DNA of 64,000 bases from Prorocentrum cordatum (Eukaryota > Sar > Dinophyceae > Prorocentrales > Prorocentraceae), in NCBI GenBank assembly GCA_963575745.1, contig CAUYUJ010020527.1:574464-638463 (forward strand). The letters are read 5' to 3'. The notes under the pieces are model-generated. The model searched no databases and had not been told where the DNA came from. It worked only from the letters and a program-made list of their open reading frames with translations. The position numbers were made by a program, and so were the translations under genes. Shown one piece after another: positions 17,825 to 60,170 of the stretch; position 1 is the first letter of the stretch; each line of letters begins with the position of its first letter.

Positions 17825-19205
17825 AGGGTGGGGGAAACGCATGCGAGAGTAGCCACTGGGGCCTTCAGTGGAGCTCCCTATGGGGCCACGAAGCGCTGCC
17901 AGGGTGGGGGAAACGCATGCGAGAGCAGCCTCTGGGGCCTTCGGTGGAGCTCCCTATGGGGCCGCGAAGCGCTGCCAGGGTGGGGGAAACGCATGCGAGA
18001 GTAGCCTCTGGGGCCTTCGGTGGAGCTCCCTATGGGGCCACGAAGCGCTGCCAGGGTGGGGGAAACGCATGCAAGAGTAGCCTCTGGGGCATTCGGTGGA
18101 GCTCCCTATGGGGCCACGAAGCGCTGCCGTGGGTGGGGGAAACGCATGCGAGAGCAGCCGCTGGGGCCTTCGGTGGAGCTCCCTATGGGGCCACGAAGCG
18201 CTGCCCAGGGGGGGGGAAACGCATGCGAGAGCAGCCTCTGGGGCCTTCGGTGGAGCTCCCTATGGGGCCACGAAGCGCTGCCAGGGTGGGGGAAACGCAT
18301 GCGAGAGCAGCCACTGGGGCTTCGGTGGAGCTCCCTATGGGGCACGAAACGCTGCCCAGGGTGGGGGAACGCATGCGAGAGCCACTGGGGCCTTCGGTGG
18401 AGCTCCCTATGGGGCCACGAAGCGCTGCCCTGGGTGGGGGAACGCATGCGAGAGCAGCCACTGGGGCCTTCGGTGGAGCTCCTCTGCCCAGGGTGGGGGG
18501 CATGCGAAACGGGGCCACGAAGCGCTGCCAGGGTGGGGGAAACGCATGCGAGGGTAGCCTCTGGGGCCTTCGGTGGAGCTCCCTATGGGGCCACGAAGCG
18601 CTGCCCTGGGTGGGGGGAACGCATGCGAGAGCAGCCACTGGGGGTGGAGCTCCCTATGGGGCCCGCTGCCCAGGGTGGGGGAAACGCATGCGAGAGCAGC
18701 CACTGGGGCCTTCTGGAGCTCCCTATGGGCCACGAAACGCTGCCAGGGTGGGGGAAACGCATGCGAGAGCAGCCACTGGGGCCTTCGGTGGAGCTCCCTA
18801 TGGGGCCACGAAGCGCTGCCCAGGGTGGGGGAAACGCATGCGAGAGCAGCCACTGGGGCCTTCGGTGGAGCTCCCTATGGGGCCACGAAGCGCTGCCCTG
18901 GGTGGGGGAAACGCATGCGAGAGCAGCCACTGGGGCCTTCGGTGGAGCTCCCTATGGGGCCACGAAGCGCTGCCCAGGGTGGGGGAAACGCATGCGAGAG
19001 CAGCCTCTGGGGCGTGGAGCTCCCTATGGGGCCACGAAGCGCTGCCCAGGGTGGGGGAAACGCATGCGAGAGCAGCCACTGGGGCCTTCGGTGGAGCTCC
19101 CTATGGGGCCACGAAGCGCTGCCCAGGGCGGGGGAAACGCATGCGAGAGCAACCACTGGGGCCTTCGGTGGAGCTCCCTATGGGGCCACGAAACGTGTGA
19201 GAGGT
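17825..19205 (+). repeat. 77-bp tandem array, about 18 copies
   Basis: The unit is GCCAGGGTGGGGGAAACGC, ATGCGAGAGCAGCC, TCTGGGGCCTTCGGTGGAGC, TCCCTATGGGGCCACGAAGC. Most copies are 76-77 bp, and several have small deletions. It is a shorter variant of the unit of about 90 bp in composite family K. Long frames on both strands are repeat translations. Confidence 0.96.
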
Positions 19206-19305
19206 GTGCCGAGAGCAAAGGCAAGGAGGGGGGGGAGGAGGAAGGAGGAGACGCGGGGCGCTGTCTCTTCAAAACGAGGATCCAACACCACAGGATGGTT
19301 GGGAA
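17825..19305 (+). mobile_element. Composite element family K, member A (3' end only)
   Basis: After the 77-bp array come CGAAACGTGTGAGAGGTGTG, a purine-rich tract (19215-19250) and the conserved terminal block with CGCGGGGCGCTGTCTCTTC, AAAACGAGGATCCAACACCA and CAGGATGGTTGGGAA. The usual 5' terminal block is not found at the left side. Confidence 0.8.
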
Positions 19306-19721
19306 TAGGCAGCGAAGCGGCGCCCCAAGAAGCCGGATGGTGCTGTAGACGACCCCCCGGGTAGCCTCAGACGGGAACAGTTAACTGCCGGAGGCTGCTG
19401 CTCGGTACAGAATGCCCGAAACTCAGATGGGAGGCGAGAAAGAACGTGAGGACGCTGGATGTAAACGAATGAGTTCGGGAAGGCGGACATGCCAAAAGGA
19501 GCTCCGGGAGGCTTCCGGACATCCGCAGGCCCCAAGAGGGCCCAGGAGGGCTCAAGACGCCTCAAAGTGGCCCCGAAGGTGCTCCCGAGAGGCCCCTAAG
19601 ATGGCTTTCAACGGAGTCCCCGGACCATATGAGTGCCACACTGGCGGGGAAACTTCCCAGAAGAGGGTCCGCCATGGTTCCCGCTCTGCGGGCCCACTGG
19701 CCCACCCTACCCTCACCCACC

Positions 19722-19880
19722 TTTAGGTCGGGCATGTCCTCTTACAGGCGGATTTTGGAAGAATCATGAAGCATAACCAACAAATAATCAACAATCGCCC
19801 GGCAATTATACAAAACCGTCACCAAACAATTTTTGCCTATTTTTGACTATTCCTCCTGTAGAGGGACATGCCCCGGCCGG
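19722..19880. mobile_element. Small inverted-repeat element T1, copy 1
   Basis: The left end TTTAGGTCGGGCATGTCC TCTTACAGGCGGA pairs with the right end TCCTCCTGTAGAGGGACATG CCCCGGCC. The interior is AT-rich and contrasts with the GC-rich surroundings. See 33906-34080 for the best-preserved copy. Confidence 0.88.
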
Positions 19881-38997: not shown

Positions 38998-39156
38998 TCA
39001 AGTCGGGCCTGTCCCTCTACAGGAGGAATATTCAAAAATAGTCAAAACATAGTCGGGGGACGATTATTGTAGTATTTTTTGAACATGCTGGAATATTTTG
39101 TGACCATTTTCAATTTTTCCTCCACCACCCCCTGCAGGGGGACATGCCCGACCTAA
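38998..39156. mobile_element. Small inverted-repeat element T1, copy 3
   Basis: Left end CAAGTCGGGCCTGTCCCTCT, ACAGGAGGAATATTC; right end TTTTTCCTCC, then GGGGGACATGCCCGACCTAA. AT-rich interior. Confidence 0.9.
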
Positions 39157-42107: not shown

Positions 42108-42264
42108 TTACGTCGGGCCTGTCCCCCTACAGGGGAATTTCGACGACAAATAACAAATACTCAACAAATGCTCCAAAATGGTCAATACATATTCAACAAA
42201 TAATCCCCAGACTATTTTTTGACTATTTCTGGATATTCCCCCTGTAGAGGAACAGGCCCCACTT
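42108..42264. mobile_element. Small inverted-repeat element T1, copy 5
   Basis: Left end TTACGTCGGGCCTGTCCCCC, TACAGGGGAATTTC; right end ATATTCCCCCTGTAGAGGAA, CAGGCCCCACTTG. AT-rich interior (CAAATACTCAACAAATGC). Confidence 0.9.
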
Positions 42265-43972: not shown

Positions 43973-44219
43973 CGACAAAACTAACCTCAAACATGTGTCA
44001 CGCGATATCCCTGTCGCGCGCGCAGAGTACGCGTTGGCGCCCGTTCACCAACCAATGTCGGTCATCGTGGAACCTCCGAGTCGCACCCGCCTGGAACGCG
44101 TTTCGCTCTGCTCCGACATCGAAGGGGATGACGGTGCATGGGCGAAAGGGTGCGGCATTGAAGTGGCGTGTCAACCACTCCTTAGTTTTCTGTTGCTGTC
44201 GAGGGTTGTAGGTGTAGCC
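43973..44219 (+). repeat. Dispersed repeat R7, copy 2
   Basis: GACAAAACTAACC, GTGTCACGCG, AATGTCGGTCATCGTGGAAC, CTCCGAGTCGC, TTTCGCTCTGCTCCG and GGCATTGAAGTGGCGTGTC match 29337-29580. It is squeezed between T2 copy 2 and T1 copy 6. Confidence 0.88.
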
Positions 44220-44380
44220 TTAGGTCGGGCATGTCCCCCTACAGGCGGATATTGGATGACACATCGAACATACGCAAAACATGCTCAAATATAATCCAAA
44301 AATGCATCACAAATCGTCCCCAGACGATCTTTGCACTATCTTTGAATATTCCTCCTGCAGAGGGCCAGGCACGACTTAAG
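44220..44380. mobile_element. Small inverted-repeat element T1, copy 6
   Basis: Left end TTAGGTCGGGCATGTCCCCC, TACAGGCGGATATTG; right end GAATATTCCTCCTGCAGAGG, GCCAGGCACGACTTAA. The extremes read CCTTAG|GT and TTAAG|TG, so GT-AG removal is formally possible. Confidence 0.92.
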
Positions 44381-44589: not shown

Positions 44590-44929
44590 AACCCCACCAT
44601 CCTATGGTGTAGGGTCCTGGTTCTGAAGAGACAGCGTCCCGCGTCCCACCTCCTCCTCCTCCTCCTGCTCCTCCTCCTGCTCCTCCTCCCGCTGCCCTTC
44701 CTCCTCCCATCCCTGCCTCTGCACTCCGCATGTCAACCACTTCGGTACACCCCTCCCACGTTTCGTTGCTCCATAGGGAGCTCCACCGAAGGCCCCAACG
44801 GCAGCGTCCGCATGGCGCACCCGCACCCCATTCGGCACACCACTCACACGTTCCGTGGCCCCACAGGGAACTCCACCGACGGCCCCGACAGCAGCATCCG
44901 CATGGCGTACCCGCACCAAATGCGTCAGA

Positions 44930-44963
<34 letters not shown>

Positions 44964-45815
44964 GCGTATCGTGGCCTCGTATGGAGCTCCACCGGAGGCC
45001 TCAGCAGCAGCGTCCGCATGGCGTACCCGCGCCCACTGCGGCAGACCCCTCACACGTTCCGTGGCCCCATAGGGAACTCCACCGAAGGCCCCAACGGCAG
45101 CGTCCGCATGGCGTTCTCGCGCCCAATTCGGCACTCCTGACACGTTCCGTGGCCCCACAGGGAACTCCACCGAAGGCCTCAGCGGCGGCGTGTTCATGGC
45201 GTACCCGCAACCGATGGCCCCCCGTCACACGTATGGTGGCCCCATAGGAAACTCCACCGAAAGCCCCAACGGCATCGTCCGCATGGCATACCCGCGTCGA
45301 CTTCGTCACACCCGTCACGTGTTCCGTGGCCTCACGGGGAGCTCCAGTGCAGGCCCCAGTGGCAGCGCCCACATGGCGCACCCACACCCAATTCGGCAGA
45401 ATCTTCACACGTTTCTTTGCCCCATAGGGAGCTCCACCGAAGGCCCCAGCGGGGCAGTCTGCATGGCGTACCCGCACCCTATCTGGTACACCCCTCACAC
45501 GTTTCGTGGCTCTTTCGGGAGCTCCGGTGCAGGCCCCTGTGGCAGCGCCCGCATGGCGCACCCGCGTCCAATTCGGCAGAACCTTCACACGTTTCTTGGC
45601 CCCATAGGGAACTCCACCGAAGGCCCCAGCGGCGCAGTCCGTATGGCGTACCCGCACCCGATCTGGTACACCCCTCACACGTTTCGTGGCTCTGTAGGGA
45701 GCTCTGTTGCAGCCTCCAGTGGCGGCGCCCGCATGGCGGCCCCGCACTCAATTCGGCACACCCCCTCACACGTTCCGTGGCCTCACAAGGGGCTCCACCG
45801 GAGGCCTTAGCGGCT
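44590..45815 (-). mobile_element. Composite element family K, member C
   Basis: It opens with ACCCCACCATCCTATGGTGT, AGGGTCCTGGTTCTGAAGAG, CAGCGTCCCGCG, a CCTCCTCC tract and CCTCCCATCCCTGCCTCTGC, then about 12 units of 85-90 bp (ACACGTTCCGTGGCCCCATA, GGGAACTCCACCGAAGGCCC, GCATGGCG, ACCCGCACCCAATTCGG). A CTCTCTCTATATATATAT tract (44931-44962) interrupts one unit. No 5' terminal block is visible at the right. Confidence 0.85.
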
Positions 45816-45852
45816 GAAGGCCTTCACCTGCACGCGATACTCGCAGCTGCAC

Positions 45853-46080
45853 ATGTTTTGGTTTGTTTTGCTTGTCGCTCTTGTCATGCTTGGCTTTTGT
45901 CGCCGTTTTGCCTGGCCCATGGGCCTTCAAACGACGGCTTCGCGGGGAGAAAAGGTCGAGGTCTTCGGGGGGCGACTGCACGGACAACATGCGTCGTTGG
46001 AGGTGACTCTCCGACGACGCACGTTGTCCGTGCCAGCTACGCCCGACGCGCAGCGACCGATCAAGACGCGGCGCCGATGA
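45853..46080 (+). CDS. Unrecognised ORF, 75 aa, hydrophobic N-terminus
   Basis: ATG to TGA frame. Residues 1-16 (MFWFVLLVALVMLGFC) form a strongly hydrophobic segment followed by RRFAW, resembling a signal peptide or membrane anchor. The remainder is basic and includes the translation of a strong DNA hairpin (45977-46034), which argues that this part is not under protein constraint. It is most likely a chance frame. Confidence 0.15.
   Translation: MFWFVLLVALVMLGFCRRFAWPMGLQTTASRGEKVEVFGGRLHGQHASLEVTLRRRTLSVPATPDAQRPIKTRRR
45977..46034. repeat. 26-bp stem hairpin
   Basis: GCACGGACAACATGCGTCGT pairs with ACGACGCACGTTGTCCGTGC around a short spacer with GGTGAC. Only about two mismatches occur in 26 positions. 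Confidence 0.92.
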
Positions 46081-46360
46081 GGCAGCTCAGCGCTGGCGCA
46101 AGCGCGCATGAAGAAGCATGCGCGATGCCCGACGGGCGCGCGGTGCGAACGCAACTCGTGCAGACGCTCAAACTTCCCCCCAAAACGCAGCATTCACACG
46201 GCGAGTTTAGTTTACGGCTTTTTTTCCTCTCTAGGGGAGGGACGGTGAGGGGGCAAAAAAGTGGAACCCCCTCGTCGTCGATACCATGTTCGTGCCCCCC
46301 ACTCCCCCCCGACTCGAAGCTGGGCTCTGGCGTGGTGGAGGCCCCGGGGGCTCCATTTTT

Positions 46361-47606
46361 TCCCAACCATCCTGTGGTGTTGGGTCCTCGTTTTGAAGAG
46401 ACGGTCCCCGCGTCCTCCTCTCCTCTCCTCTCCTCTCCTCTCCTCCTCTCCTCTCCTCCTCTCCTCTCCTCCTCCTCTCCTCCTCTCCTCTTCACCCACC
46501 CAGTACACCGTTTCGTGGCCCCATAGGGAGCTCCGCCGAAGGCCCCAGTGCTGCCGCCCGCATGCGTCACCCACACTCAAGTCGGCACACCCCTCACACG
46601 TTTCGTGGCCCCATAGGGAGCCCCACCGAAGGCCCCAGTGCTGCCGCCCGCATGCGTCACCCACACCCAATTCGGCACACCCCTCACACGTTTCGTGGCC
46701 CCATAGGGAGCCCCGCGGAAGGCCCCAGTGCTGCCGCCCGCATGCGTCCCGCACACCCAATTCGGCACACCCCTCACACGTTTCGTGGCCCCATAGGGAG
46801 CCCCACAGAAGGCCCCAGTGCTGCCGCCCGCATGCGTCCCGGCGGTGCTCACATGCGCATGCGTCCCGCACACCCATTTCGGCACATCCCTGACAGGTTT
46901 CGTGGCCCCATCATCCACCGGAGGCCCCAGTGGCGGCGCTCACATGCGTCACCCACACCCACCCAATTCGGCACACCCCTCACACGTTTCGTGGCCCCAT
47001 AGGGAGCTCCACCGAAGGCCCCAGCGGCCGCGCTCACATGCGTCCCCGCCACCCATCCCGGCACGCCCCTCACAACAACAGGTTTCGTGGCCCCATGGGG
47101 AGCTCCACCGAAGGCCCCAGTGCACCGCCCGCATGCGTCACCACCCGCACCCAATTCGGCACACCCCTCACACGTTTCGTGGCCCCATAGAGAGCTGCAC
47201 CGAAGGCCCCAGTGGCGGCGCTCACATGCGTCCCCGCCACACATCCCAGTACACCCCTCACGCGCTTCGTGGCCCCATAGGGAGCTCCACCGAAGGCCCC
47301 AGTAGCGGCGCTTACATGCGTCTCCGCCGCCCATCCCGCCCCCCCCCCGCAGCAGCATCATGTTTCGGGGACCCATACGGAGCTCCACTGGAGGCCCCAG
47401 TGGCGGCCCGTACATGCGTTTCCGCCACCCATGTCGGCACGCCCCGCGCGTGTTTCATGTCGGCACCCAGTGGCCGAATGCCCCAGTGGCACCCATCTCG
47501 GCACACCCCTCACACGTTCCGTAGTCCTATGGGGAGTTCCATTGAAGATGAAACCCGCAGCTGCGGTACTGACAACTGCATATGGTTGGGTTCTTCGCCA
47601 GGCTAA
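46361..47606 (-). mobile_element. Composite element family K, member D (complete)
   Basis: Read on the minus strand it starts at 47606 with TTAGCCTGGCGAAGAACCCA, ACCATATGCAGTTG and a unique segment (AGCTGCGGGTTTCATCTTC). About 11 units of 85-90 bp follow, then a GAGAGGAGAGGAGG purine tract and the terminal block with GGACCGTCTCTTCAAAACG, AGGACCCAACACCACAGG and ATGGTTGGGAA ending at 46361. Both ends share CCCAACCATC in inverted orientation. ATTTTT flanks both sides and may be a target duplication. Frames of 30-codon units (GVGDACGRQHWGLRWGSLWG, HETCEGCAEL) stay open. Confidence 0.88.
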
Positions 47607-47609
47607 TTT

Positions 47610-48019
47610 TTCGTTTGTCCTTTCTAGCCTGCGCTCTGGAACGTCTGGGAACAACTGTGAGTGTGGGGGGAGGGGAGGCAGCAGAGTCAAGGGCTCCACT
47701 TTTTTGTCCATCTGCGGGGGCATCGCTCTCCCCCTCCAGCTCGGCGGCGCCTCGGCGACGGGGCGCCGGAACAGGCCTCGGGCCACGCCCGCAGTAATCT
47801 GCCAGGGGGCGGCGACCGCTCGCTGTCGACTCCGTGAGGGGGTCAGCGAAGAAGGGGAACGGCGAAGAGGAGAAACGAAGAGCGGCCCCACCACCCACCT
47901 CGGCTCCTCTTCCCTTCCCTGCTCCTCCCTGTCTCCTTCCTCGCTTTCGCACGAGCGTTTCGTGTAGCTGCGCCTGTGTATTCTACGCCCCGTCGCTGCG
48001 CGCGAGGCCGTGACCGCTC
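47610..48019. other. No recognisable gene
   Basis: Spacer between composite members D and E. GC-rich, with no clear repeat or coding signal. Confidence 0.5.
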
Positions 48020-48112
48020 ATATATATATATATATATATATGTATATACATACATACATACATACATACATACATACATACATACATACATACATACATA
48101 CATACATACATG
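48020..48112. repeat. TA and CATA microsatellite
   Basis: TATATA run continuing into about 18 CATA units, located just outside the end of composite member E. Confidence 0.97.
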
Positions 48113-48140
48113 CATATATTCCCATTCCTCTTCCTATGTT

Positions 48141-50262
48141 TTTCCCAACCATCCTGTGGTGTTGGGTCCTCGTTTTGAAGAGACGGTGCCCCGCGTTCTC
48201 CTCTCCTCTCCTCTCCTCTCATCTCCTCTCCTCTCCTCTCCTCCTCCCCCTCCTCCCTCCTCCCTCCTCCATTTCGGCACACGCCTCACACGTTTCGTGG
48301 CCCCGTAGGGAGCCCCACCGAACGCCCCAGTGCTGCCGCCCGCATGCGTCACCCACACCCACTTCGGCACACCCCTCACACGTTTCGTGGCCCCATAGGG
48401 AGCCCCACCGAAGGCCCCAGTGCTGCCGCCCGCATGCGTCACCCACGCCCATCGCGGCACACCCTCACACGTTTCGTGGCCCCATAGGGAGCCCCACCGA
48501 AGGCCCCAGTGCTGCCGCCCGCATGCGTCACCCACACCCAATTCGGCACACCCCTCACACGTTTCGTGGCCCCATAGGGAGCCCCACCGAAGGCCCCAGT
48601 GCTGCCGCCCGCATGCGTCCCCACACCCATTCGGCACACCCCTCACACGTTTCGTGGCCCCATAGGGAGCCCCACCGAAGGCCCCAGTGCTGCCGCCCGC
48701 ATGCGTCACCCACACCCAATTCGGCACACCCCTCACACGTTTCGTGGCCCCATAGGGAGCCCCACCGAAGGCCCCAGTGCTGCCGCCCGCATGCGTCACC
48801 ACACCCATTCGGCACACCCCTCACACGTTTCGTGGCCCCATAGGGAGCCCCACCGAAGGCCCCAGTGCTGCCGCCCGCATGCGTCCCCACACCCAATTCG
48901 GCACACCCCTCACACGTTTCGTGGCCCCATAGGGAGCCCCACCGAAGGCCCCAGTGCTGCCGCCCGCATGCGTCCCCACACCCATTCGGCACACCCCTCA
49001 CACGTTTCGTGGCCCCATAGGGAGCCCCACCGAAGGCCCCAGTGCTGCCGCCCGCATGCGTCACCGCACACCCAATTCGGCACACCCCTCACACGTTTCG
49101 TGGCCCCATAGGGAGCCCCACCGAAGGCCCCAGTGCTGCCGCCCGCATGCGTCACCCACACCCAATTCGGCACACCCCTCACACGTTTCGTGGCCCCATA
49201 GGGAGCCCCACCGAAGGCCCCAGTGCTGCCGCCCGCATGCGTCACCCACACCCAATTCGGCACACCCCTCACACGTTTCGTGGCCCCATAGGGAGCCCCA
49301 CCGAAGGCCCCAGTGCTGCCGCCCGCATGCGTCACGCACACCCAATTCGGCACACCCCTCACACGTTTCGTGGCCCCCATTCGTGGCCTATGGGGAGCTC
49401 CACCGAAGGCTCCAGTGGGTGTGCCCGCATGCGTCCCGCACACCCATTTCGGCACACCCCTCACGCGTTTCGTGGCCCCATAGGGAGCTCCACCGAAGGC
49501 CCCAGTGGCGGCGCTCACATGCGCATGCGTCCAGCACACCCATTTCGGCACATCCCTCACTGGTTTCGTGGTCCCGTCATCCACCGGAGGCCCCAGTGGC
49601 GGCGCTCACATGCGCCACCAACACCCACCCATGTCGGCACACCCCTCACACATTTCGTGGCCCCATAGGGAGCTCCACCGAAGGCCCCAGCGGCCGCGCT
49701 CAAATGCGTCCCCGCCACCCATCCCGGCACGCCCCTGGCCCCATAGGGAGCCCCACCGAAGGCCCCAGTGGCACCGCCCGCATGCGTCACCACCCGCACC
49801 CAATTCGGCACACCCCTCACACGTTTCGTGGCCCCATAGGGAGCTGCACCGAAGGCCCCAGTGGCGGCGCTCACATGCGTCCCCGCCACACATCCCAGTA
49901 CACCCCTCACGCGCTTCGTGGCCCCATAGGGAGCTCCACCGAAGGCCCCAGTAGCGGCGCTTACATGCGTCTCCGCCACCCATCCCGGCACCCCCCCCCG
50001 CAGCAGCATCATGTTTCGGGGACCCATAGGGAGCTCCACTGGAGGCCCCAGTGGCGGCCCTCACATGCGTTTCCGCCACCCATGTCGGCACGCCCCGCGC
50101 GTGTTTCATGTCCCCATAGGGAGCTTCGCCGAATGCCCTAGTGGCACCCATCTCGGCACACCCCTCACACGTTCCGTAGTCCTATGGGGAGTTCCATTGA
50201 AGATGAAACCCGCAGCTGCGGTACTGACAACTGCATATGGTTGGGTTCTTCGCCGGGCTAAT
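48141..50262 (-). mobile_element. Composite element family K, member E (complete, longest)
   Basis: It has the same design and orientation as member D. The 5' block TTAGCCCGGCGAAGAACCCA, ACCATATGCAGTTG ends at 50262, and the 3' block with TCTTCAAAACGAGGACCCA and CAGGATGGTTGGGAAA ends at 48141. About 21 units are present. Many are exactly 90 bp (for example starts at 49166 and 49256) and some lack 1-3 bp. The right 0.75 kb is nearly identical, unit by unit, to the right part of member D, including the deviant unit with CATCATCCACCGG. D and E are therefore recent duplicates that differ in unit number. Confidence 0.9.
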
Positions 50263-51003
50263 TACAAGCCTGGGGAGCGGGGGAAACCCTCCCCCCTCCA
50301 AAACCGGACTCCCAGGATCCGGGGCTTTGGGGCCCCTGGACGCCCTTGGAAGAGGTCCTCCAGCCCTGCCGCGCCTCCCAAGGCGCCTTTCCGGGCCTTG
50401 CCCAGCATACCAAAAACGATCAGAGAAGAAGTCGAAGAGGCGCAAGAGAGCCCCAAGACAACGCAAATCGGCCCCAAGGCAGCCCAAGATGCCCCCAAGA
50501 CGGCCCCAAAGGCCGTCTTCAGGAAGGCACCCAAGAGGCAAACATCTTCCCATTCCCTTTGGGGACACGTGCATTTTCAGCGTGTTCGCTGTTTGTGTAG
50601 TAGCAGCGATCACGACGGACCGAAAGGCCTCCGAGATCGCCCGAGGACGTCCTACGAGGCCCCCAAGAGGGCTTCAAGACAGCCCGAGAGGGCCCCAAGA
50701 CTGCCCCAAGACAACCCCAAAGAAGCTCACGAGGCCCCCGAAGGCTCCCAAGAGAGACTCACGAGGGCCATGGGGGGTCCACAGGGGGGCCCAAGATGGC
50801 CCCAAGAAGGCCAGTAGAAGCTCAAATGCTCCAAGAAGGCCCCAGCACAGCTCAAGAGGGGCCCAAGACGGCTCGAACGAGTTTCAAAAGGACCCCCAAG
50901 ACAGCCCAGAGAGGCGCTTGGGAGGCCTCCAGGTGTCCCCCCAAACCCTTGAAACATTCGTGAGGCCCCCAAGACAACTCTAACGGTGAACCTCCGCAAA
51001 AAG
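50262..51003 (+). repeat. Dispersed repeat R4, copy 2
   Basis: It starts with CAAGCCTGGGGAGCGGGGG, GACTCCCAGGATCCGGGGC, continues as an 11-12-bp CCCCCAAGACGGC minisatellite and ends with GAACCTCCGCAAAAAGACC. It lacks the foldback segment found in copy 1. Confidence 0.82.
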
Positions 51004-51725
51004 ACCTGCGGCACACGGGGAATGGTTCGCAGCGCCAGGCGTAAACGAGGATGAACGAGAGGAACGATGTGGAGCGATAATGCGATGCTGTCCATTGCTT
51101 TGCACTGTGCGACAGGGCAACTTTGGCCACGGGCGAGCCTGTGAGGTGGCCGCGCGAAGGGTCCCGAACATCATTCCTTTGCATGTCCGTCTTCCAGAAG
51201 GCGTCTTTCTACGAAATGCACCAAACTGACCCGAATCCCGGGTTTCCATCAACATTCCTCAGAAATCTGTGGCGAACCCGGGTTTCGGTCTAGTTGCAAG
51301 ACCATGCCGGTATTGCTTGACATGGCTTTGCTTCGTATTCTGCGGCGTTGCTGGGCAGTGCGTTGCTTTGTTCGACATGCACTCGCGTGGCTTACCATTT
51401 TTTTGCATTGCGCGCCCGGACAGCCTGGGACACGAGCGGGCTAGTGTGTGGGCCACACGAGGGCTCTCCACGTCATTCACGCGAACATGTTCTTCAATTG
51501 TGTACGTATTCATGCATCCGTGGCGGTTGGCTAGAGTACTTTATTCAAGCTCCCGCATGCGCCACATCCTTCATGTCTGTAATCGCTTGCTCGGATTGTA
51601 GCGAAACCCTGCCTTTTCGGAGCCTCCAGGTGGCGTTTCTGTCGCCACGTCATCGGGCCCGCCTCGAAATTCTTCCAAACGCACCCCAAGAAACATTCGG
51701 GTGGCGCACGAACATGTAAATCGAG
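51004..51725. other. Non-repetitive stretch without recognisable gene
   Basis: About 720 bp of AT-richer unique sequence. Short frames (the longest about 120 codons) show no conserved motif. It includes an AACCCGGGTTTCGG and ATCCCGGGTTTCC pair near 51230-51285. Confidence 0.45.
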
Positions 51726-51729
51726 GGCG

Positions 51730-51925
51730 AGGGCAAATAAGAAACGGGTAAAGAGGTTGTGAAAAGGAAGCGGCCAAATTTCAAAGGCCAAAGAGGATGA
51801 CGCCAAGTGCCAACATCGGCGAAACTTGAAGGACCAAGGTGCATGGCGCGAAGCGCCAACGCAGTCGAATGCAGCCTTGTGTATATACATATATGTATAC
51901 ACATGTTTATGTATATGTGTGTGTG
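51730..51925 (+). repeat. Dispersed repeat R5, copy 2
   Basis: GCGAAACTTGAAGGACCAAG, GTGCATGGCGCGAAGCGCC and GCAGCCTTGTGTATATACAT match 17240-17475. It again ends in a TA/GT tract. Confidence 0.82.
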
Positions 51926-52104
51926 TGTACATGCCGTTCGACGGTCCCTGTCCGCTGCCTCGCTGCCAAGGCGCCGCACCTGGCCACTGCCCCGTGAGGC
52001 GTCGGCCGTCTCGCCTTTTCCTTACCTCACTTTGACTTCTGGGCGCGCGCGTTGTCCTCCGCTCGGCGCGTCTGACAACGTGCCGAGTCGCCCGTCCGCG
52101 ACGA

Positions 52105-52222
52105 CCGAGAAATGGTGTGTGTGTGTGTGTGTGTGCGAGCGTTCGAGTGTGTGTGTGTGTGTGTGTGTGAACGCGTGTGCTTTGGTGAGTGCGTGAGTGC
52201 GTGTGTCTGTGTGTGTGTGTGA
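52105..52222. repeat. GT microsatellite in three blocks
   Basis: GTGTGT runs separated by CGAGCGTTCGAGT and AACGCGTGTGCTTTGG. Confidence 0.95.
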
Positions 52223-52504
52223 ATTTACTTGTGTGCTTGTGCTGTTGTTTGTCAATCGTCGGTTCGGGTTGCACATCTGTTTTCGTTCGTCGCGCGTTTT
52301 GTGTTGTTGTTCACCCTCGGACGGCCCTCTTTTGACGCCGGGGGGGGGGGGGATGCCACTTTACCTCTGAACGGGGCCCTTCCCGTCCCCTGTGCTTCAC
52401 AGCGGCCCGTCCGAATCCGCTCGGCTGCACCCTGGCGGCAAACTGCCCCAAACAACATGCTGCATGTGCATACCAACTCAAACGTTCTACTGTGCTGCAC
52501 GTGC

Positions 52505-52995
52505 GGGAGGGCACGCGATGGACCACGCGGGAAAACCGACGGGAAAGCAGACGTGAACACATACGGGAGAACGAGTGGGAGAACCTGCAGGGGGAACAGA
52601 AAAGAACCGAACATACGAGAGAACACACGGGAGACTAGACGGGAGAACGTGCGGCAACACGTGCGAAAGAACCTACGGGAACATGAGACGAAAGACCACA
52701 CGGGAGAGCATACGGGGAACATGCGGGAGAACTCACGGGAGAACAACAAGGGGAACATACGGTAGAACATACGGGGGACATGCGAGAACCCATACGGGGA
52801 AACATGCGGGATATCACACTGGAGAATATACGGGAACACAAACGGGATAACACAAGGGATACCGTACGGCAACATATACGGGGTATCACCCCATATACCA
52901 TACGGTGGGACATACGGGGTAACATAGAGGAAGGCACACGGGAGAACATGCGGGGGAACATACGGGTGACTATACGGGACAACATGCGAGAACGT
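52505..52995. repeat. 15-bp minisatellite (ACATACGGGAGAACA)
   Basis: About 30 degenerate units of 14-16 bp such as ACACACGGGAGACTA and ACATGCGGGAGAACT. The plus strand reads as NIREN/TRETR-type residues. The array resumes at 53853-53945 beyond a CAT tract and repeat R1. Confidence 0.92.
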
Positions 52996-53084
52996 ACCTA
53001 TACGACCACCCTGCGGGTGATAAGGAGGTTTGGGGGGGGGGGGCCAGCAATGGGCAACAGTGGTGAATGTTGTGACATGACACT

Positions 53085-53362
53085 ATCGATCTCACAATCG
53101 ATATCACTATCGACGTCGTCATCATCATCATCGACATCACCATTAACATCATCATCATCGTCATCATCATCATCAGCATCATCATCATCATCATCAACGT
53201 CGTCATCATCATCACAATCATCATCACCATCATGGCCATCATCACCATCAGCATCGCACAATCGATCTCACATTCGGTCTCACTATCGATATCACAATCG
53301 ATCTCACAATCGACATCATCATCATCATGATCATCATCATCAACGACACCAACATCATCATC

Positions 53363-53393
<31 letters not shown>

Positions 53394-53428
53394 TGATCAT
53401 GATCATCATCATCATCATCATCATCATC

Positions 53429-53460
<32 letters not shown>

Positions 53461-53463
53461 TAC

Positions 53464-53511
<48 letters not shown>

Positions 53512-53518
53512 AATATCC
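53085..53518. repeat. ATC/CAT microsatellite and TATCGATCTCACAATCG units
   Basis: Long CATCAT runs, flanked and interrupted by units CACTATCGATATCACAATCG and GATCTCACAATCG. Confidence 0.95.
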
Positions 53519-53521
53519 ACG

Positions 53522-53852
53522 TCATCATCGGGACACCGACGGGACACCGAAGGGACACCAGCGGGACACCGGCGGGACACCGCGCGGCACCGGCCGCCCG
53601 GTCAAGGTTCTTTTGCCCGGCCGCGCCTCAGCCACACGGGACACCAGCGGGACACCGGCGGGACACCGCGGGGCACCGGCCGCCCGGTCAAGGTTCTTTT
53701 GCTCCGGCCGCGCCTCAGCCACAGGAGACTTTCTCTCGCCCGCCCACGCAGCTTCGCCTCGCCCGCACGGCACGCACGAACACGAAACCGAAATCGATTT
53801 CCCGGTAGGGGGGCTCTCCGTTCCACTTCGATCTCACCCCCCAACCTCCGAT
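53522..53852 (+). repeat. Dispersed repeat R1, copy 2 (complete)
   Basis: GGGACACCGACGGGACACC subunits, two blocks of about 97 bp ending in CCGCGCCTCAGCCACA, and the 3' part with TTTCTCTCGCCCGCCCACGC, GAACACGAAACCGAAATCG and GGGGGGCTCTCCGTTCC match 1-311. It lies between a CAT tract and the continuation of the 15-bp minisatellite, so it appears inserted into that composite array. Confidence 0.92.
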
Positions 53853-54469
53853 ACGGGATAACATATGGGAACACATCCGGAATCACACACACACACACGG
53901 GAAACTATACAATGAACCGTACGGGAGAACATACGGGACACCACGAGCGACCGATTCTGGACCCATGGAACCTTACACGCAGCTTTAAAATGCTTATCCA
54001 GACGAAAGACCCAACCACGAGCAGCTGCGAGCATCGCGGGGCAAGTGAGACGAAACAAGGTGGCCAGCAAACGTATGCAGGGTGTGCCGAAATCGGTGCG
54101 GTGCCGCCATGCGAACGCAACCACCGGGGCCTTCGGCGGAGCTCCATATGAGGGCCACGAAGCATGTGAGAGGTGTGCCGAAATTGGTGGGGTGCCGCCA
54201 TGCGGACACTGCCATTGCGGCCTTCGGTGGAGCTTCCTTTGGGGCCACGACACGAATGAGGGGTCTGTCGAAATGGGGGCGGTGCCGCCATGCGAACGCA
54301 GCCGCTGGGGCCTTTGGCGGAGCCCCCTGTGAGGCCACGAAGAGTGTAATGGTGGCGGTGCCGCCATGCGGGCGCAGCCACTGGGGGCCTCCGGCGGAGC
54401 TCCCATGAGCTCCCTTATGGGGCCCCGCAGCGAGCGAGGCGTGTACCGGTATGGATGCGGTGCCGCTTC

Positions 54470-54641
54470 GGCTATACGCAAGAGTGACCCTGGGTAAGAG
54501 TGACCGGGTGCGCCACTTTTTGGGGGCCGCTGGGGGACCAAACCTGGGCGCGCAAGCAGCTGCTGCTGCTTCGTTTTCAGCCATATGGGGACCCATCTGT
54601 GCCCGTACCACAAGTCACTCCGGCGAAAGGTCACTCTTACG
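54470..54641. mobile_element. Small inverted-repeat element T2, copy 3 (nested)
   Basis: GGCTATACGCAAGAGTGACC, CTGGGTAAGAGTGACC at the left; ACTCCGGCGAAAGGTCACTC, TTAC at the right. The inner left end GTAAGAGTGACC and right end GGTCACTCTTAC are a perfect 12-bp inverted repeat. The element splits a unit of composite member F, which makes it the younger insertion. Confidence 0.9.
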
Positions 54642-55137
54642 TCCAGTCGACCGCTATGCGAACGCAACCACTGTGGCCTTCGGTGTAGCTCCCTATGGGG
54701 CCCCGAAGCGTGTGAGAGGTGTGCCGACATGGGAGCGGTGCCGCCGTGCGAACGCAGCCACTGTGGCCTTCGGCGGAGCTCCCTATGGGGCCGCGAAACG
54801 CGTGAGAGGTGCGCCGGCACAGGGGCGGTGCTGCCACGCGGACCCTGCCACAGAGGCCTCCAGCGGAGCTCCCTATGGGTCCACGAAGCGTGTGACAGGT
54901 GTGCCGACATGGGGGTTGTGTTGCCATGCGAACGCGACCACTGGGGCCTTCGGTGGAGCTCCCTATGGGGCCACGAAGCGCGTGAGGTGTTTGTGTGTGT
55001 GTGTGTGCATGTGTGTGTGTGTGTGTGTGCCGCCGTACGGACGCTGCCGCTGGGGCCCTTCGGCGGAGCTCCCTATAGTGTCACGAAGGATGTGAGGGGT
55101 GTGCCGATGACAACGGCGATGAGGCTGATGAATCAAG

Positions 55138-55550
55138 GGTGAAGGATGATGAGGATGATGATGATGATAATGATGACGATGGCGATGAAAATGATGAAGA
55201 TGATGCTGCTGATGATGATGCTGCTGCTGATGATGATCGTGCTGATGATACTGATGATCATGCTGCTGATGCTGATGCTGATGGTGATGGCAACGATGAT
55301 GCTGCTGATGATGCCGATGACGTTGGCGGTCACGATGATGATGGTGTTGACACTGGCGGACGGTGTTGACGCGTACGACGATGATTGCGATGCTGCTTCT
55401 GATGATGATGCTAATGATGATGCTGCTGCTGAGGATGATCATCATGACGACGATGACGATGACGATTATAATGATGCTGATGATGATGCTGATTCCGATG
55501 ATGACGACGATGTTGATGATGATGGCGACTGTGAGGACCTGCGGAGTGTA
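55138..55550. repeat. GAT/GCT-rich tract
   Basis: GATGATGCTGCTGATGATG-type sequence with a central non-triplet break near 55325-55385. Confidence 0.95.
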
Positions 55551-55669
55551 GATACAGGGATGAAATGAGGGAGCATGAAGAGGAGGGGGAGGGCATCGGA
55601 AGGGAAGGAAGGAGATGCGGGGCGATGTGTATTCAAAACGAGGACCCAAGACCACTGGACGTCTGGAAA

Positions 55670-56079
55670 GAATAGAAGACCATTAAAGACGAGCTGCTTA
55701 AGGGAAATCAATCACTGGACTTCTACCGAGGTTCATCTTGGCCAATTTTTCGAGCCGCGTCCAACCGTGGAGGACCTCCAGACACGCCCACCACCTTCCG
55801 AGGCGAAGGCGTCAACGATGACGCCGTCCACACTGCACGCGACCTGGCACCTGCTTCAAGAAATCATAGCGATCCAGGTGTCTTTGGCAAGGCCTCGACT
55901 CATCTTCTGCGCGCCGCCTGTTTGAGAGCAGGTCTGCCAACGCGAATGCGCGCATGTTTCCGGAAGACGGTGATGAAGCGGACCGGGACCCAGAGCCCTG
56001 GGGGAGACGGACAAGACGCAATCTGCAAGATAATCTCAAGACCACACGGCACGCGTCCACGAGCTCCCGCATGGCCTGG
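55670..56079. other. No recognised gene
   Basis: Mixed sequence with frames on both strands. Nothing conserved is recognised. Confidence 0.45.
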
Positions 56080-56202
56080 GAAGACTCGCTGCTCCCGCTG
56101 CTGCTGCTCCTGCGCCTGCTGTTCGCCCCGCTGCTCCTGCTCCTCCCGCATCCTCCGCTGCGCCATGCGCTGGGCGGCGCGCGTTTGACGACCCTGCAGG
56201 CT
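56080..56202 (-). CDS. Candidate coiled-coil exon fragment
   Basis: Within a longer ATG-less minus-strand frame (55900-56259), this segment reads SLQGRQTRAAQRMAQRRM, then REEQEQRGEQQAQEQQQR. It is a strongly charged Gln/Glu/Arg helix of about 40 residues, as in coiled coils. The DNA is not a simple tandem repeat, though it contains a few CAG and GAG triplets. Flanking residues (VFPGHAGARGRV, VPVRFITVFRKHARI) continue without a stop. No partner domain is visible. Confidence 0.3.
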
Positions 56203-56620
56203 CCGGCAGGCACGTTCGCATCCGCTGCTGCTACAACTACTCCAAGCACCTGGCGTCACGCTTCGCGCCGCGCGCAGCGCGAAGCGCGATTGGCATTCTG
56301 CTCTCGCGCCGCCCCCCCCGGGACGTCACTGGGGACAAGCGCCTTTCCAGCCCAGACCGCCAAGCGTGGTTGTCCCGGCGCCCCTGAGGGTGACCCAGCG
56401 TTCATTCTCGTACGTCTGTGTTCTGGCTGGCAGAGCGGCGCGCACGCCCTTCGGATGTGGCGGCTGTGCGCGTTAGAATCAACTCCCAGCCGCCAATCTG
56501 GCAGCAAGCGGTGGGAGGCGGTCAACTCTGCCGATCCGCGAACCACGCGCACTTTCCTCAGGGACCATGGGCTGGCAGGCCGCGCGCAGCACAGCAGCAG
56601 GACGGAAGCGCATTCAAACA
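56203..56620. other. No recognised gene
   Basis: Mixed GC-rich sequence before composite member H. Both strands have open frames of 70-190 codons without recognisable motifs. Confidence 0.45.
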
Positions 56621-57746
56621 TTAGCCTGGCGAAGGACCCAACCATCTGCAAGTGTGAGTAACGCAATTGTGAACATCGTCTTCGGTGGAGCCCCCTATGG
56701 GGCCACGAAGCGTGTGAAGGGTGTGCTGTGATCGGTGCGGGGGACGCAAACGAGAACCGCCACTTGGGCTTGCGGTGCTGCCCCCATGAGGCCACGAAGC
56801 GTGTGATGGGGTGTGCCGACATGTGTGCGGGGGGCGCATGCGGGAATCGCGGCTGGGGCCGTCGGTGGAGCTCCCTCTGGGGGCACGAAATGTATGAGGG
56901 GTGTGCCGAAATGGGTGCAGGGGACGCAAGCGAGAACCGCCACTGGGGCTTGCGGTCAACCCCCTTATGGGGCCATGAAACGTGCGAGGGATGCGCCGAA
57001 ATGGACGCGGGGGACGCATGCGAGAACCGCCACGGGGCTTTCGGTGGAACTCACCATGGGGCCATGAAACGTGTGATGGGGTGTGTCGTAACTGGTGCGG
57101 GGGGCGCATGCGAGAACCACTACTGGGCCCTTCGGTGGAGCTCCCTATGGGGCCACGACGCGTGTGAAGGGTGTGCCGACGTGGCTGCGGGGGACGCATG
57201 CGAGAACCGCCACTGGGGCTTGCGGTGAATGGGACCACGAAGCGTGTGAGGGGTGTGCCGACATGTGTGCGGGGGACGCATGGGAGAACCGCCAGTGGAG
57301 CCTTCGGTGGAGCTCCCTATGGGGCCACGAGCGTGAGGGGTGCGCCGACATGAGCGCGGTGTCGCCATGCGGAGCCTCCCACGAGCCGTGTAAGGGGTGT
57401 GCCGTATTGGGTGAGGGTGTACCATGCGGACGCTGATGCTGGGCCCTTTGGTGGAGCTCCCTACGGGGCCACGAAGCGCGTGAAGGGTGTGCCGAATCGG
57501 GTGCGGGTGCGCCATGCGGACGCTGACGCTGGGGCCTTCGGTGGAGCTCCCTACGGGGCCACGAAGCGTGTGGGGTGTGTGCCGAATCAGCATGCGGAGG
57601 GGGAGGGAGGGAGGAGGGAGGGGGGAGGAGGAGGAGGAGGAAGATAGGAGAAGGAGGAGGAGGAGGAGGAGGAGGAGGAGGAGGAGGAGGACGCGGGGCA
57701 TTGTCTCCTCAAAACGAGGACCCAACACCATAGGATGGTTGGGAGC
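56621..57746 (+). mobile_element. Composite element family K, member H (complete)
   Basis: The 5' block TTAGCCTGGCGAAGGACCCA, ACCATCTGCAAGTGTGAGT is followed by about 10 units (TTCGGTGGAGCCCCCTATG, GGGCCACGAAGCGTGTG, GGGGGACGCATGCGAGAACC, GCCACTGGGGC), then CATGCGGAGGGGGAGGG, a GGA tract (57640-57690) and the terminal block CGCGGGGCATTGTCTCCTC, AAAACGAGGACCCAACACCA, TAGGATGGTTGGGA. Confidence 0.9.
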
Positions 57747-57794
57747 AGTCACGCGTAATCATGGAGCGCGAGGATGTAGGGCACCTGCCACGCG

Positions 57795-58354
57795 CTAAGA
57801 TGCCAGAACATCTGTGAATTTGGAAAGCGAATCAGCATGCACAACGTGCCCAGAAATGGAAGATGCAAGGGTGCCGCGTTTCAGAGGCTCATCCTTAACG
57901 CAAGGTTTGTCAGCAAACGGAGCAACATGGTGGAACCAAATCCTGGACCCCAGGACTCTTTCCTGGGACAACCTTCTCAACCTGAATCGTTTGTTTGTTT
58001 CGCCCCCCGAAGGCCGGGAAGAGCCCCAGGAGCCCGAGGACGGAGAAGCACTCCCAGGACCCCTTTCTTCCAGTACCTGCCGGGACGCTTCCCCGCGCAG
58101 CCCGAAGGCACCCGCCTGTGCGCCTCCCGGGGGAGCCCGGGAGTGCCTGCCAGGACGCTCTCCCGGGCAGCCCGACGGTGCCCCCTGCCTTCGTGGCGAG
58201 ACCTGCTGCGAAGCTGACGTGGCCGCGTGCACGGGCACCGCCGCCGCCCTCGCGCGGCCTACCGACGGGGCCGGCTCCTTCTCAGAGGTGCCCCAAAGAC
58301 GGGTGCCCAACGCCCACGTGCCCGCTGCTCCGGTGCCGAGCGGCTCACTCTTCC

Positions 58355-58386
<32 letters not shown>

Positions 58387-58523
58387 TTCTTCTTGTGTCC
58401 TCCCCTCTCTCCTCCTCCTGGTGTGCTACCCTTTGCTCTGGGCCCCTGAGGATCGGGGAGGTTCTCGGACGTTTCTGGTCTGGCAAGCTCTGGGGGTCTC
58501 CCGAGGCCTCCAAGGGCCTCCAA
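57795..58523. CDS. Region open on both strands; candidate exon
   Basis: The plus strand (57814-58449) and minus strand (58523-57795) each have a frame of more than 210 codons without ATG at the limit. The plus frame includes GATWWNQILDPRTLSWDNLL and LFVSPPEGREEPQEPEDG, then a polyphenylalanine run. The minus frame reads that tract as KKKKKKRKKKKKKRK, and also NKRFRLRRLSQERVLGSRIW and SSISGHVVHADSLS. The lysine reading is the more plausible if either is coding. No domain is recognised, and the strand cannot be decided from sequence alone. Confidence 0.25.
58350..58396. repeat. TTC microsatellite
   Basis: TTCTTC run with CTCTTC breaks inside the frame pair described at 57795-58523. Confidence 0.95.
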
Positions 58524-58654
58524 GGACGTCCGAGGTCAGGATCCGGGGCGTCTGCAGAACTCACCCGCCCTCTCCCTTGCCCTCCTCCTTCGCGACCTCG
58601 TCTTCCTTGCCCTTTCCCGCGTCCTCGACCAGGTCCCCGTCCTCATCCCCGTCT

Positions 58655-58788
58655 GGGTCGTCTGTGTCGTCGTCGTCTGGGTCGTCTGGGTCGTCTGGGT
58701 CGTCTGGGTCGTCTGGGTCGTCTGGGTCGTCTGGGTCGTCGTCGTCGTCGTCGTCTGGGTCGTCGTCGTCGTCGTCGTCGTCGTCTGG

Positions 58789-58832
<44 letters not shown>

Positions 58833-58835
58833 TGG
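58655..58835. repeat. GTC and GTCGTCTGG microsatellite
   Basis: Nine-bp units GTCGTCTGG grade into pure GTC. Confidence 0.95.
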
Positions 58836-58839
58836 GTTT

Positions 58840-59395
58840 ACTGTACCTCCGTTGCCATCATCCTCCGCCGCCACGGGTCTCCTCCACGCCCTCCTCCCTC
58901 GGCCTCTCTACTGCCTCATCGCCATCATCCTCGTCATCGTCCTCACTACTATGGTCGATGAATGGCCACGAGGATGCAGGCCAAGAAGACGAGTCCTTTC
59001 GCCGAAGGCCCAAGGTCCCCTCAGGAGATCTCCCCTAAACGGAACCCATTCCAAAGTGGAGAGGCCAAACAAGATGACTAGAAGGGCATCTCTTCACAAG
59101 CAGGATTGTTCTCAGCCCTCGTGCCAGCTGTATCACCATTCGACATCGTCATCGTCATTCTGATTACCTACCTCGCTAGCGTCATCGCAGTGTTTCTCGT
59201 CTCCGATGCCCTACTCACCCTGCCCTTCCACGTATGACTGTTTGCCTGAGTCCTGGGTGGAACAGTGCCTCTAATTCATGCTGCTTGCACCCTAGATTCC
59301 CGTGCAAGAAGCGGCAATTCAGAAGGAATCTGAAACTACCCCCTTAATCCCACCACTGCTCTGGGCGTACGCAGTTGAGCAGGTCAGATCTTCCA
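58840..59395. other. No recognisable gene
   Basis: Mixed AT-richer sequence with CATCGTCATCGTC patches. No frame is convincing. Confidence 0.5.
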
Positions 59396-59397
59396 AC

Positions 59398-60170
59398 ATC
59401 GCCTGGCGAAGGACCCAATCATCTGCAGTTGCGAGTGCCGTCGTTGTGAGTATCGCCTCCGGTGGATCTCCTAATGGGGCTACGAAGTGTGTGAAGGGTG
59501 TGCCGAAATTGGGCGGGGCGGCCATGCGGGCGCTGCCACTGAGGCTTTACGTAGAGCCCCTTACGGGGCTACGAAGCGTATGAGGGGTGTGCCGACATGG
59601 GCGGGGCCGTCATGCGGGCGCTGTCACTGGGGCCTTCGGTGGAGCTCCCTATGGGACCACGAACCGTGGCATGCTGGCACTGGCACTGGGACCTTCGGTG
59701 GAGCTTCCTTCGGGGCCACGAAGCGTGTGAAGGGTCTGCCGAATTGGGTGCGAGTGCTCCATGCGGGCGCTGACGCTGGGGCCTTCGGTGGAGCTCTCAA
59801 GGGGGCTACGCACCGTGTGAGGGGTGCGCCGATATGGGTGGGGCGGCCGCATGTGGTACACCCCCCTGGGGGCCTTCGGTGGAGCTCCATATGGGGCCAC
59901 GAAGCGTGTGATAGGTGTGCCGAGCGGGGCGGCCGTATGTGGTACATCCCCCTAGGGCCTTCGGTGGAGCTCCCTATGGTGACACGAAACGTGTGGGGTG
60001 TGTGCCGAACTGGTTGACATGCGGAGGGTGGAGAGCAGAGGCCAGGATGGGAGGAGGAAGGAGGAGGAGGAGGAGGAGGAGGAGAAGGAGGAGGAGAAGG
60101 AGGAGGAGGAGTAGGACGCGGGGCACTGTCTCTTCAAAAAAAAACCCCAACACCACAGGATGGTTGGGAA
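59398..60170 (+). mobile_element. Composite element family K, member I (complete, shortest)
   Basis: The 5' block TCGCCTGGCGAAGGACCCAA, TCATCTGCAGTTGCGAGT is followed by about 7 units (TTCGGTGGAGCTCCATATG, GGGCCACGAAGCGTGTG), then GAACTGGTTGACATGCGGAG, a GGA tract (60056-60112) and the terminal block CGCGGGGCACTGTCTCTTC, CCCAACACCACAGGATGG, TTGGGAA. A run of nine A replaces the usual AAAACGAGG. Confidence 0.9.

Follow-up and report, generated by a model that had tools for sequence, protein, structure and literature searches.

What kind of DNA joins two constant ends to a tandem array that differs in size from one copy to the next? This question is raised by a 64 kb stretch of the Prorocentrum cordatum assembly, the whole of which we call the window (GC 61%), and by a set of repeated blocks within it that we call family K. 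Each K block is a copy of the same inserted DNA element, which has a fixed sequence at either end and a tandem array between them. We consider this element likely to be a non-autonomous rolling-circle transposon that would take its Rep/helicase from other elements of the same genome. The rolling-circle reading is based on the fixed ends, the loss of homology outside them, T-rich insertion sites, empty sites, head-to-tail junctions, Rep domains in the genome, and an order of modules known from HINEs, which are non-autonomous Helentrons.

The window holds eight K elements, and both ends are present in five of them (D, E, F, H, and I). A search with the 5' module gave eight matches, one for each array. 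The blocks lie where an earlier note, made from the sequence alone, had placed them; we read them in the opposite orientation, so that the block it called 3' is the 5' end here. The end sequences of the elements include TTCCCAACCATCC and CCTTCGCCAGGNTAA. In the following list, subTIR stands for subterminal inverted repeat.

46361 to 47606, forward strand: element D, complete, with a 5' module at about 46361-46410, a TCC-rich microsatellite at 46413-46491, and the array at about 46509-47536.
46362 to 46384, forward strand: subTIR CCCAACCATCC of the 5' module of D plus its complementary repeat, the inverted repeat GTGTTGGG; drawn as a hairpin in the fold.
47584 to 47606, forward strand: 3' end of D, with a second subTIR, GGTTGGG, then the tail TTCTTCGCCAGGCTAA; terminal GGCTAA at 47606; no palindrome found.
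48143 to 50261, forward strand: element E, complete, with a microsatellite at 48197-48270 and the longest array, 22 units counted, at about 48269-50191.
53994 to 55668, reverse strand: element F, two ends, diverged; other sequence at 54449-54655 interrupts the array, and a GAT-rich tract at 55145-55524 lies between the array and the 5' end.
56621 to 57744, reverse strand: element H, complete, with a microsatellite at 57596-57691 and the array at about 56681-57586.
59399 to 60169, reverse strand: element I, complete, with the shortest array, 7 units; the query for genome-wide relatives.
44591 to about 45840, forward strand: element C, with a 5' module, 12 units, and a decayed 3' module (by eye; right end approximate).
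37219 to about 38437, forward strand: element B, with a 5' module and 11 units; the 3' module is apparently shortened by a deletion and its second subTIR is gone (by eye; right end approximate).
17826 to 19305, reverse strand: element A, in which a 5' module is joined to 16 units, each about 77 bases long; by eye, it shows no 3' module.

The last three arrays are taken to be those that the earlier note had called A, B, and C and had described as one-ended. This description holds for A, and all three have a 5' module, but B and C retain a shortened and a decayed 3' module, respectively. The interruption of F that the note described was also found.

In a typical copy TTCCCAACCATCCTGTGGTGTTGGGTCCTCGTTTTGAAGAGAC is followed by a TCC-rich microsatellite, a short linker, an array of units of about 77 or about 90 bases, and a 3' module ending in GGTTGGGTCCTTCGCCAGGCTAA. 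The microsatellite of the left module, of TCC or TCTCC type, is clear in D, E, H, I, and C. The 5' subTIR CCCAACCATCC starts 1-2 bases inside a T or TT start, the first base being uncertain owing to the T tract. The 3' subTIR GATGGTTGGG, or a near form of it, occurs in D, E, F, H, and I and in the genome loci that we fetched. CCCAACCATC is present at both ends in inverted orientation.

We scanned the window for array units by counting mismatches and tolerated up to 16 mismatches in 41 positions. This gave 94 units, all within the eight elements (A, 16; B, 11; C, 12; D, 10; E, 22; F, 8; H, 8; I, 7), and none on either strand in the rest of the window. Because all units are confined in this way, the combination of arrays and ends is not due to chance. 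The architecture is that of the earlier note, which had given 7-21 units of about 90 bases; the five two-ended copies contain 7-22 units and the unit of A is about 77 bases long.

A dispersed satellite or minisatellite that spread via segmental duplication, with end blocks that are mere flanks, is one way to account for such arrays. The window is rich in tandem repeats, and D and E, with 536 bases between them, have their last units in the same order; both observations would suit this history. The absence of units outside bounded elements does not. We compared the borders of the copies by ungapped pairwise identity in 10-base bins, excluding B, C, and F from the averages. At the 5' end (A, D, E, H, and I) identity was 0.60-0.80 inside and 0.20-0.29 outside. 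At the 3' end (D, E, H, and I) it was 0.43-0.75 inside, 0.35 in the first 10 outer bases, which are T-rich, and 0.23-0.28 farther out. Since copies are no more alike beyond either end than unrelated sequences are, K is an element and not a satellite. Homology stopping at the same two points in unrelated flanks, together with the empty sites described below, makes the satellite explanation very improbable.

To describe the array we collected complete copies. Two pairs of loci (L020/L035 and L031/L039) overlap and represent the same genome places; with repeated copies counted once, 35 copies became 33 distinct ones, 5 from the window and 28 from other genome loci. These are 508-2356 bases long and contain 3-22 units. 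Despite this range, the distance between the last counted unit and the 3' end is exactly 90 bases in 20 of the 33 copies and 180 bases in four. This fixed distance, combined with variable length and unit number, indicates that the array changes inside a fixed frame. D and E illustrate such a change. Their last units match in order (D7-E18, D8-E19, D9-E20, and D10-E22), while the first half of the E array is a long run of near-identical units, from which we conclude that the array changed after the D and E copies arose.

A unit spacing of 76-77 bases is commonest in a subfamily (L075, L085, L088, L094, and element A of the window) that exists beside the 90-base type. The earlier note had also suggested a separate search for the two end blocks. 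All eight window arrays have a 5' module, but outside the window a few ends have no unit nearby: among the fetched loci, one 5' end (L089) and one 3' end (L032), and also the 5' end in the database protein P0027. In P0027, which comes from an ENA contig of 9.8 kb, and in L089 from base 1518, the 5' module and a microsatellite are followed by no recognizable array. These array-less 5' modules are possibly another cargo type of K element.

A core of about 45 bases in the unit is strongly conserved. This is what would be expected if the unit were a functional coding or structured RNA repeat, with the ends as gene boundaries. However, the 23 database proteins that match the array frame appear, by eye, to read the unit in every one of its three frames, and no Rfam match reached the gathering score in the window. 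We give this explanation almost no credence. A structured unit was rejected separately, since the consensus unit folds like its shuffles (z 0.22 and -0.69). The 23 proteins are all encoded on ENA contigs shorter than 3 kb. Among the database proteins, P0010 and P0026 have a readable 3' end, P0028 has a 5' end plus array, and P0027 has the 5' end without an array.

We next consider where K elements insert. For flank composition we used non-redundant flanks from which end-to-end joins had been removed (20 of 52 at the 5' side and 18 of 60 at the 3' side). T occupies positions -1 to -5 before CCCAACC in 84, 75, 53, 78, and 78% of flanks (n = 32), and the four positions after the NTAA tail in 76, 62, 71, and 60% (n = 42), compared to a background of 19-20%. 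A was found at positions -1, -2, and -3 in 1, 1, and 6 of 32 flanks, respectively. At the first base of the tail, 20 of 42 copies have C and 18 have A.

Empty sites were sought by comparing the joined flanks of the 35 complete copies, before the repeats were dropped, with the window and the fetched loci. Eighteen gave no match across the joint, 14 were tandem, so that their flanks were K sequence, and three had a usable paralogue. These three are L025 (empty site in L031 and L039, and weakly in L081), L036 (in four window repeats), and L040 (in L023). In all three we see no repeated flank bases except Ts, some of which perhaps belong to the start of the element itself, and close to the joint the alignments are broken in T-rich stretches by gaps of up to 7 bases. 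To within a few ambiguous T-rich bases, a clear target duplication is not visible at any of these diverged sites, a result that is only suggestive. The short target duplications that the earlier note had proposed to look for are accordingly not clear in any of these sites. Direct repeats at five copies in the window were also unremarkable; the best were 6, 3, 3, 4, and 3 bases long, and 20 swapped pairs gave 3.5 on average (2-6). The lack of a clear target duplication fits a rolling-circle element better than a cut-and-paste element. With a 5' module at every window array and with empty sites present, the earlier proposal of a non-autonomous mobile element that has defined ends and an interior that grows and shrinks is supported.

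The K insertion of L036 lies in a genome copy of a separate repeat. Window copies of this repeat, about 150-160 bases long with GGGGGACATGCCC-type ends and palindromic by eye, are found at 19720-19873, 39000-39156, 42112-42259, and 44218-44379, and they served as empty sites.

These data bear on whether K is a cut-and-paste element resembling a miniature inverted-repeat transposable element (MITE), with short inverted repeats and a minisatellite carried by chance. The inverted CCCAACCATC at the two ends would agree with this, and MITEs that carry tandem repeats have been reported, as far as the literature we draw on goes. The inverted repeats of K are asymmetric, however; their distance to the element's end is 1-2 bases on one side and about 15 on the other. 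K thus does not show the symmetric terminal inverted repeats and clear target duplication of MITEs and other elements with terminal inverted repeats. The three empty sites also argue against a MITE-like element, as do the head-to-tail joins presented next, which far exceed 3'-to-3' ones (although the two search patterns were unequal). We regard this alternative as improbable.

We searched the window's own assembly (4,128,499,153 bases in 21,875 contigs) for relatives of copy I. This gave 15,605 first-look candidates, a figure that is not a copy count; scores were computed for 40 of them. Among the 30 loci listed, one of which is the window's own copy, 19 have a recognizable 5' end. We then searched the genome for exact matches to a 3' tail followed within 3-9 bases by a 5' start and found 246 head-to-tail junctions. 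The reversed-pattern control gave none. Among 100 junction linkers listed, 64 start with NTAA and 50 consist of NTAA and Ts only. By comparison, a search for 3'-to-3' junctions yielded 9 matches at 7 places, but its spacer was wider and its pattern differed, so that the ratio to 246 is only indicative.

Head-to-tail joins can arise in two ways. The 3' end may be read through so that a concatemer is inserted, or new copies may mostly land in the T tract beside an old copy. The target is T-rich and probably strand-specific, and side-by-side insertion into such a target would also yield head-to-tail order, since neighbors would share their orientation. To distinguish these possibilities we asked whether joined copies are siblings, using 20 of the 246 junctions, which were the first by contig number and not a random sample. 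Nine tandem pairs had both 3' ends within reach. The 3' regions of five of them are 0.92-0.99 identical, and no more than 1.4% of 144 comparisons between loci come as high; those of the other four are not sibling-like. Among nine pairs with both 5' ends within reach, the 5' regions exceed all 144 comparisons in only three and do not in six. Two loci contain neighboring whole copies with similarities of 0.80 and 0.82, compared to 0.63 and 0.66 for the best other copy (L094 was excluded as a comparator); the arrays of one such pair consist of 16 and 15 units. The sibling-like 3' regions and these two loci, where neighbors resemble each other more than any copy compared from elsewhere, speak against neighbor insertion as the main source of junctions. 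The non-sibling pairs favor it and indicate that some joins can have formed when a copy inserted next to one already present. We see a rolling-circle element whose junctions are mostly of this second kind as a reasonable possibility, if somewhat on the doubtful side. Probably both read-through concatemers and insertions beside old copies occur.

A rolling-circle element without its own enzyme requires a source of Rep/helicase, and such a partner of K elements is a presumption. A genome search with the Helitron Rep domain (PF14214) gave 1615 first-look candidates, of which 150 were scored, and all matches listed are above the curated cut-off. Open frames with this domain are up to 3573 aa long. 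For two frames, which are cut at the ends of their loci, Pfam returned PF14214 and one weak replication-initiator match each, below the cut-off. Several groups of Rep loci (among L043-L072) consist of copies that are about 99% identical or more and have long open frames. This suggests recent activity of autonomous elements.

Based on these results, transposition of K can be pictured as follows. A Rep protein would nick one strand at the 5' end (TTCCCAACC) and peel it off as far as the 3' end (GGTTGGGTCCTTCGCCAGGNTAA), and the peeled strand would be inserted into a T-rich site. Where the stop at the 3' end is missed, head-to-tail concatemers would form. Units of 77-90 bases may be gained or lost through slippage or unequal exchange, with the outer junctions remaining fixed.

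Several observations weigh against the rolling-circle explanation. The empty-site paralogues are only about 65-74% alike in addition to being gapped near the joint, L031 is tandemly repeated, and the match in L081 has E = 0.011. A test for shared strings, made with 18 copies (15 of 33 were removed as join-like), gave 4.33 compared to 3.81 (p = 0.005). This excess weakens to p = 0.08 without L036 and to p = 0.18 without L036 and L037, and TTTG at L036 was rejected as a target duplication because the motif is already in the empty repeats. The tandem pairs that are not sibling-like also count here. No 3' palindrome was found. For four 3' ends the fold does not beat that of shuffled sequence (z -0.39, 1.21, 1.23, and 0.18), and perfect stems in 73 distinct 3' ends are overall no longer than in shuffles, although 10 ends have 6 pairs where 3.1 were expected. 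The 5' hairpin is weak; the fold is clearly better than shuffles only in H among five 5' ends (z: H, -4.05; D, -1.28; C, -1.18; B, 0.91; F, 0.86). GTGTTGGG does directly follow the 5' subTIR, and the pair cells formed across 34 distinct 5' ends number 231 out of 272, compared to a shuffled mean of 225, with 8 of 500 shuffles reaching 231. Lastly, no clear K ends lie within 1.5 kb of 30 Rep loci, where one weak 3'-like match occurs (L055, 8 of 26 positions mismatched), or in four further stretches totaling 18 kb (nothing in L073 and L074; a 5'-like string in L095, 16 of 41 mismatched). The coding partner with shared ends that the earlier note had envisaged was thus not found in this limited search, which covered Rep loci and their flanks and not whole elements.

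The nearest known relatives in design are HINE and DINE-1 elements, for which we draw on parts of two papers (Thomas et al. 2014, PMC4067079; Vojvoda Zeljko et al. 2020, PMC7492417). These elements have a modular order with central tandem repeats, and Pearl has been re-categorized among them (PMC4067079, PMC7492417). The earlier note knew of no family with this design; the modular design is already known from animals and that claim is wrong. Like K, HINE and DINE-1 elements have one subTIR near the 5' end and a second inside the 3' end, a microsatellite, tandem repeats in some copies, and T-rich insertion sites, and DINE-1 has an inverted repeat beside the 5' subTIR (PMC4067079). The 5' subTIR of HINEs is expected 2-4 bases from the 5' end, with which its place in K agrees. 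They are described as causing no target modification (PMC4067079), and the empty sites of K do not contradict insertion of this type. Unlike HINEs, K has no 3' palindrome that we found and no partner with shared ends was found, and its tail after the 3' subTIR is about 15 bases compared to 38-60 in mite HINEs (PMC4067079). Because the palindrome was tested for and not found, and no partner with the same ends was found, we call K HINE-like and not a HINE.

Cg_HINE from the Pacific oyster resembles K in having satellite-like arrays between left and right modules. Its left module ends in a microsatellite, its right module is about 60 bases, and its arrays are short, the longest having 29 monomers (PMC7492417). 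Its authors were likewise unable to connect it to a partner. The unit of K is 77-90 bases compared to an average of 140-180 in Cg_HINE, the Cg_HINE 3' palindromes that were examined can form stem loops, unlike the 3' end of K (PMC7492417), and the host of K, unlike the oyster, is probably no animal. Pearl, tandem-repeat MITEs, and the Tetris foldback element also have defined ends around tandem repeats (PMC7492417), compared here by description only.

Canonical Helitrons are described as inserting between A and T and as having a 3' hairpin, whereas the 5' flank of K is mostly T and no hairpin was found; K lacks both the A/T insertion and the 3' CTRR with a hairpin about 11 bases upstream. It does share with the Helitron Helraiser the precise head-to-tail end junctions, which were reported for Helraiser circles (PMC4778049). 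In the sections of that paper we use, deletion of the 3' hairpin of Helraiser raises the frequency of non-canonical read-through events. By analogy, the frequent K junctions may share this type of cause, read-through in the absence of a 3' hairpin. More speculatively, and with considerable doubt, K could represent a dinoflagellate rolling-circle lineage without a 3' terminator hairpin in which read-through concatemers are frequent, so that the array would serve as a mobile nursery for satellites across the 4-Gb genome.

New here are the host, probably a dinoflagellate, and the large number of concatemer-like junctions. The word Helitron does not occur in the main text of the paper on the Prorocentrum cordatum genome (PMC10666404), and we found no publication on the K family in the portion of the Helitron and Helentron literature on dinoflagellates, protists, or algae that we covered. 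If our explanation is correct, rolling-circle elements that carry tandem repeats, described from animals in the papers we draw on, would also occur in an alveolate alga whose genome is very large, and K elements could account for some of its dispersed tandem repeats. Because a single assembly contains hundreds of exact joins between ends, the read-through model can be tested directly for rolling-circle transposition.

We also considered whether K derives from phages, plasmids, bacteria, or viruses, and rejected each. There was no match in phages or plasmids, and two long patterns were unmatched in viral contigs. An 18-base pattern gave one match each in 9 bacterial-genome loci and 3 viral contigs, which by rough reckoning is about the level of chance. 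Among other features of the window, 10 chosen open frames had no Pfam match, and no tRNA or Rfam match was found in it. The window also contains two short tandem arrays built on GGGACACCGGC-like sequence, one at 1-184 with 97-base units and the other at 53529-53723 with 86-base units.

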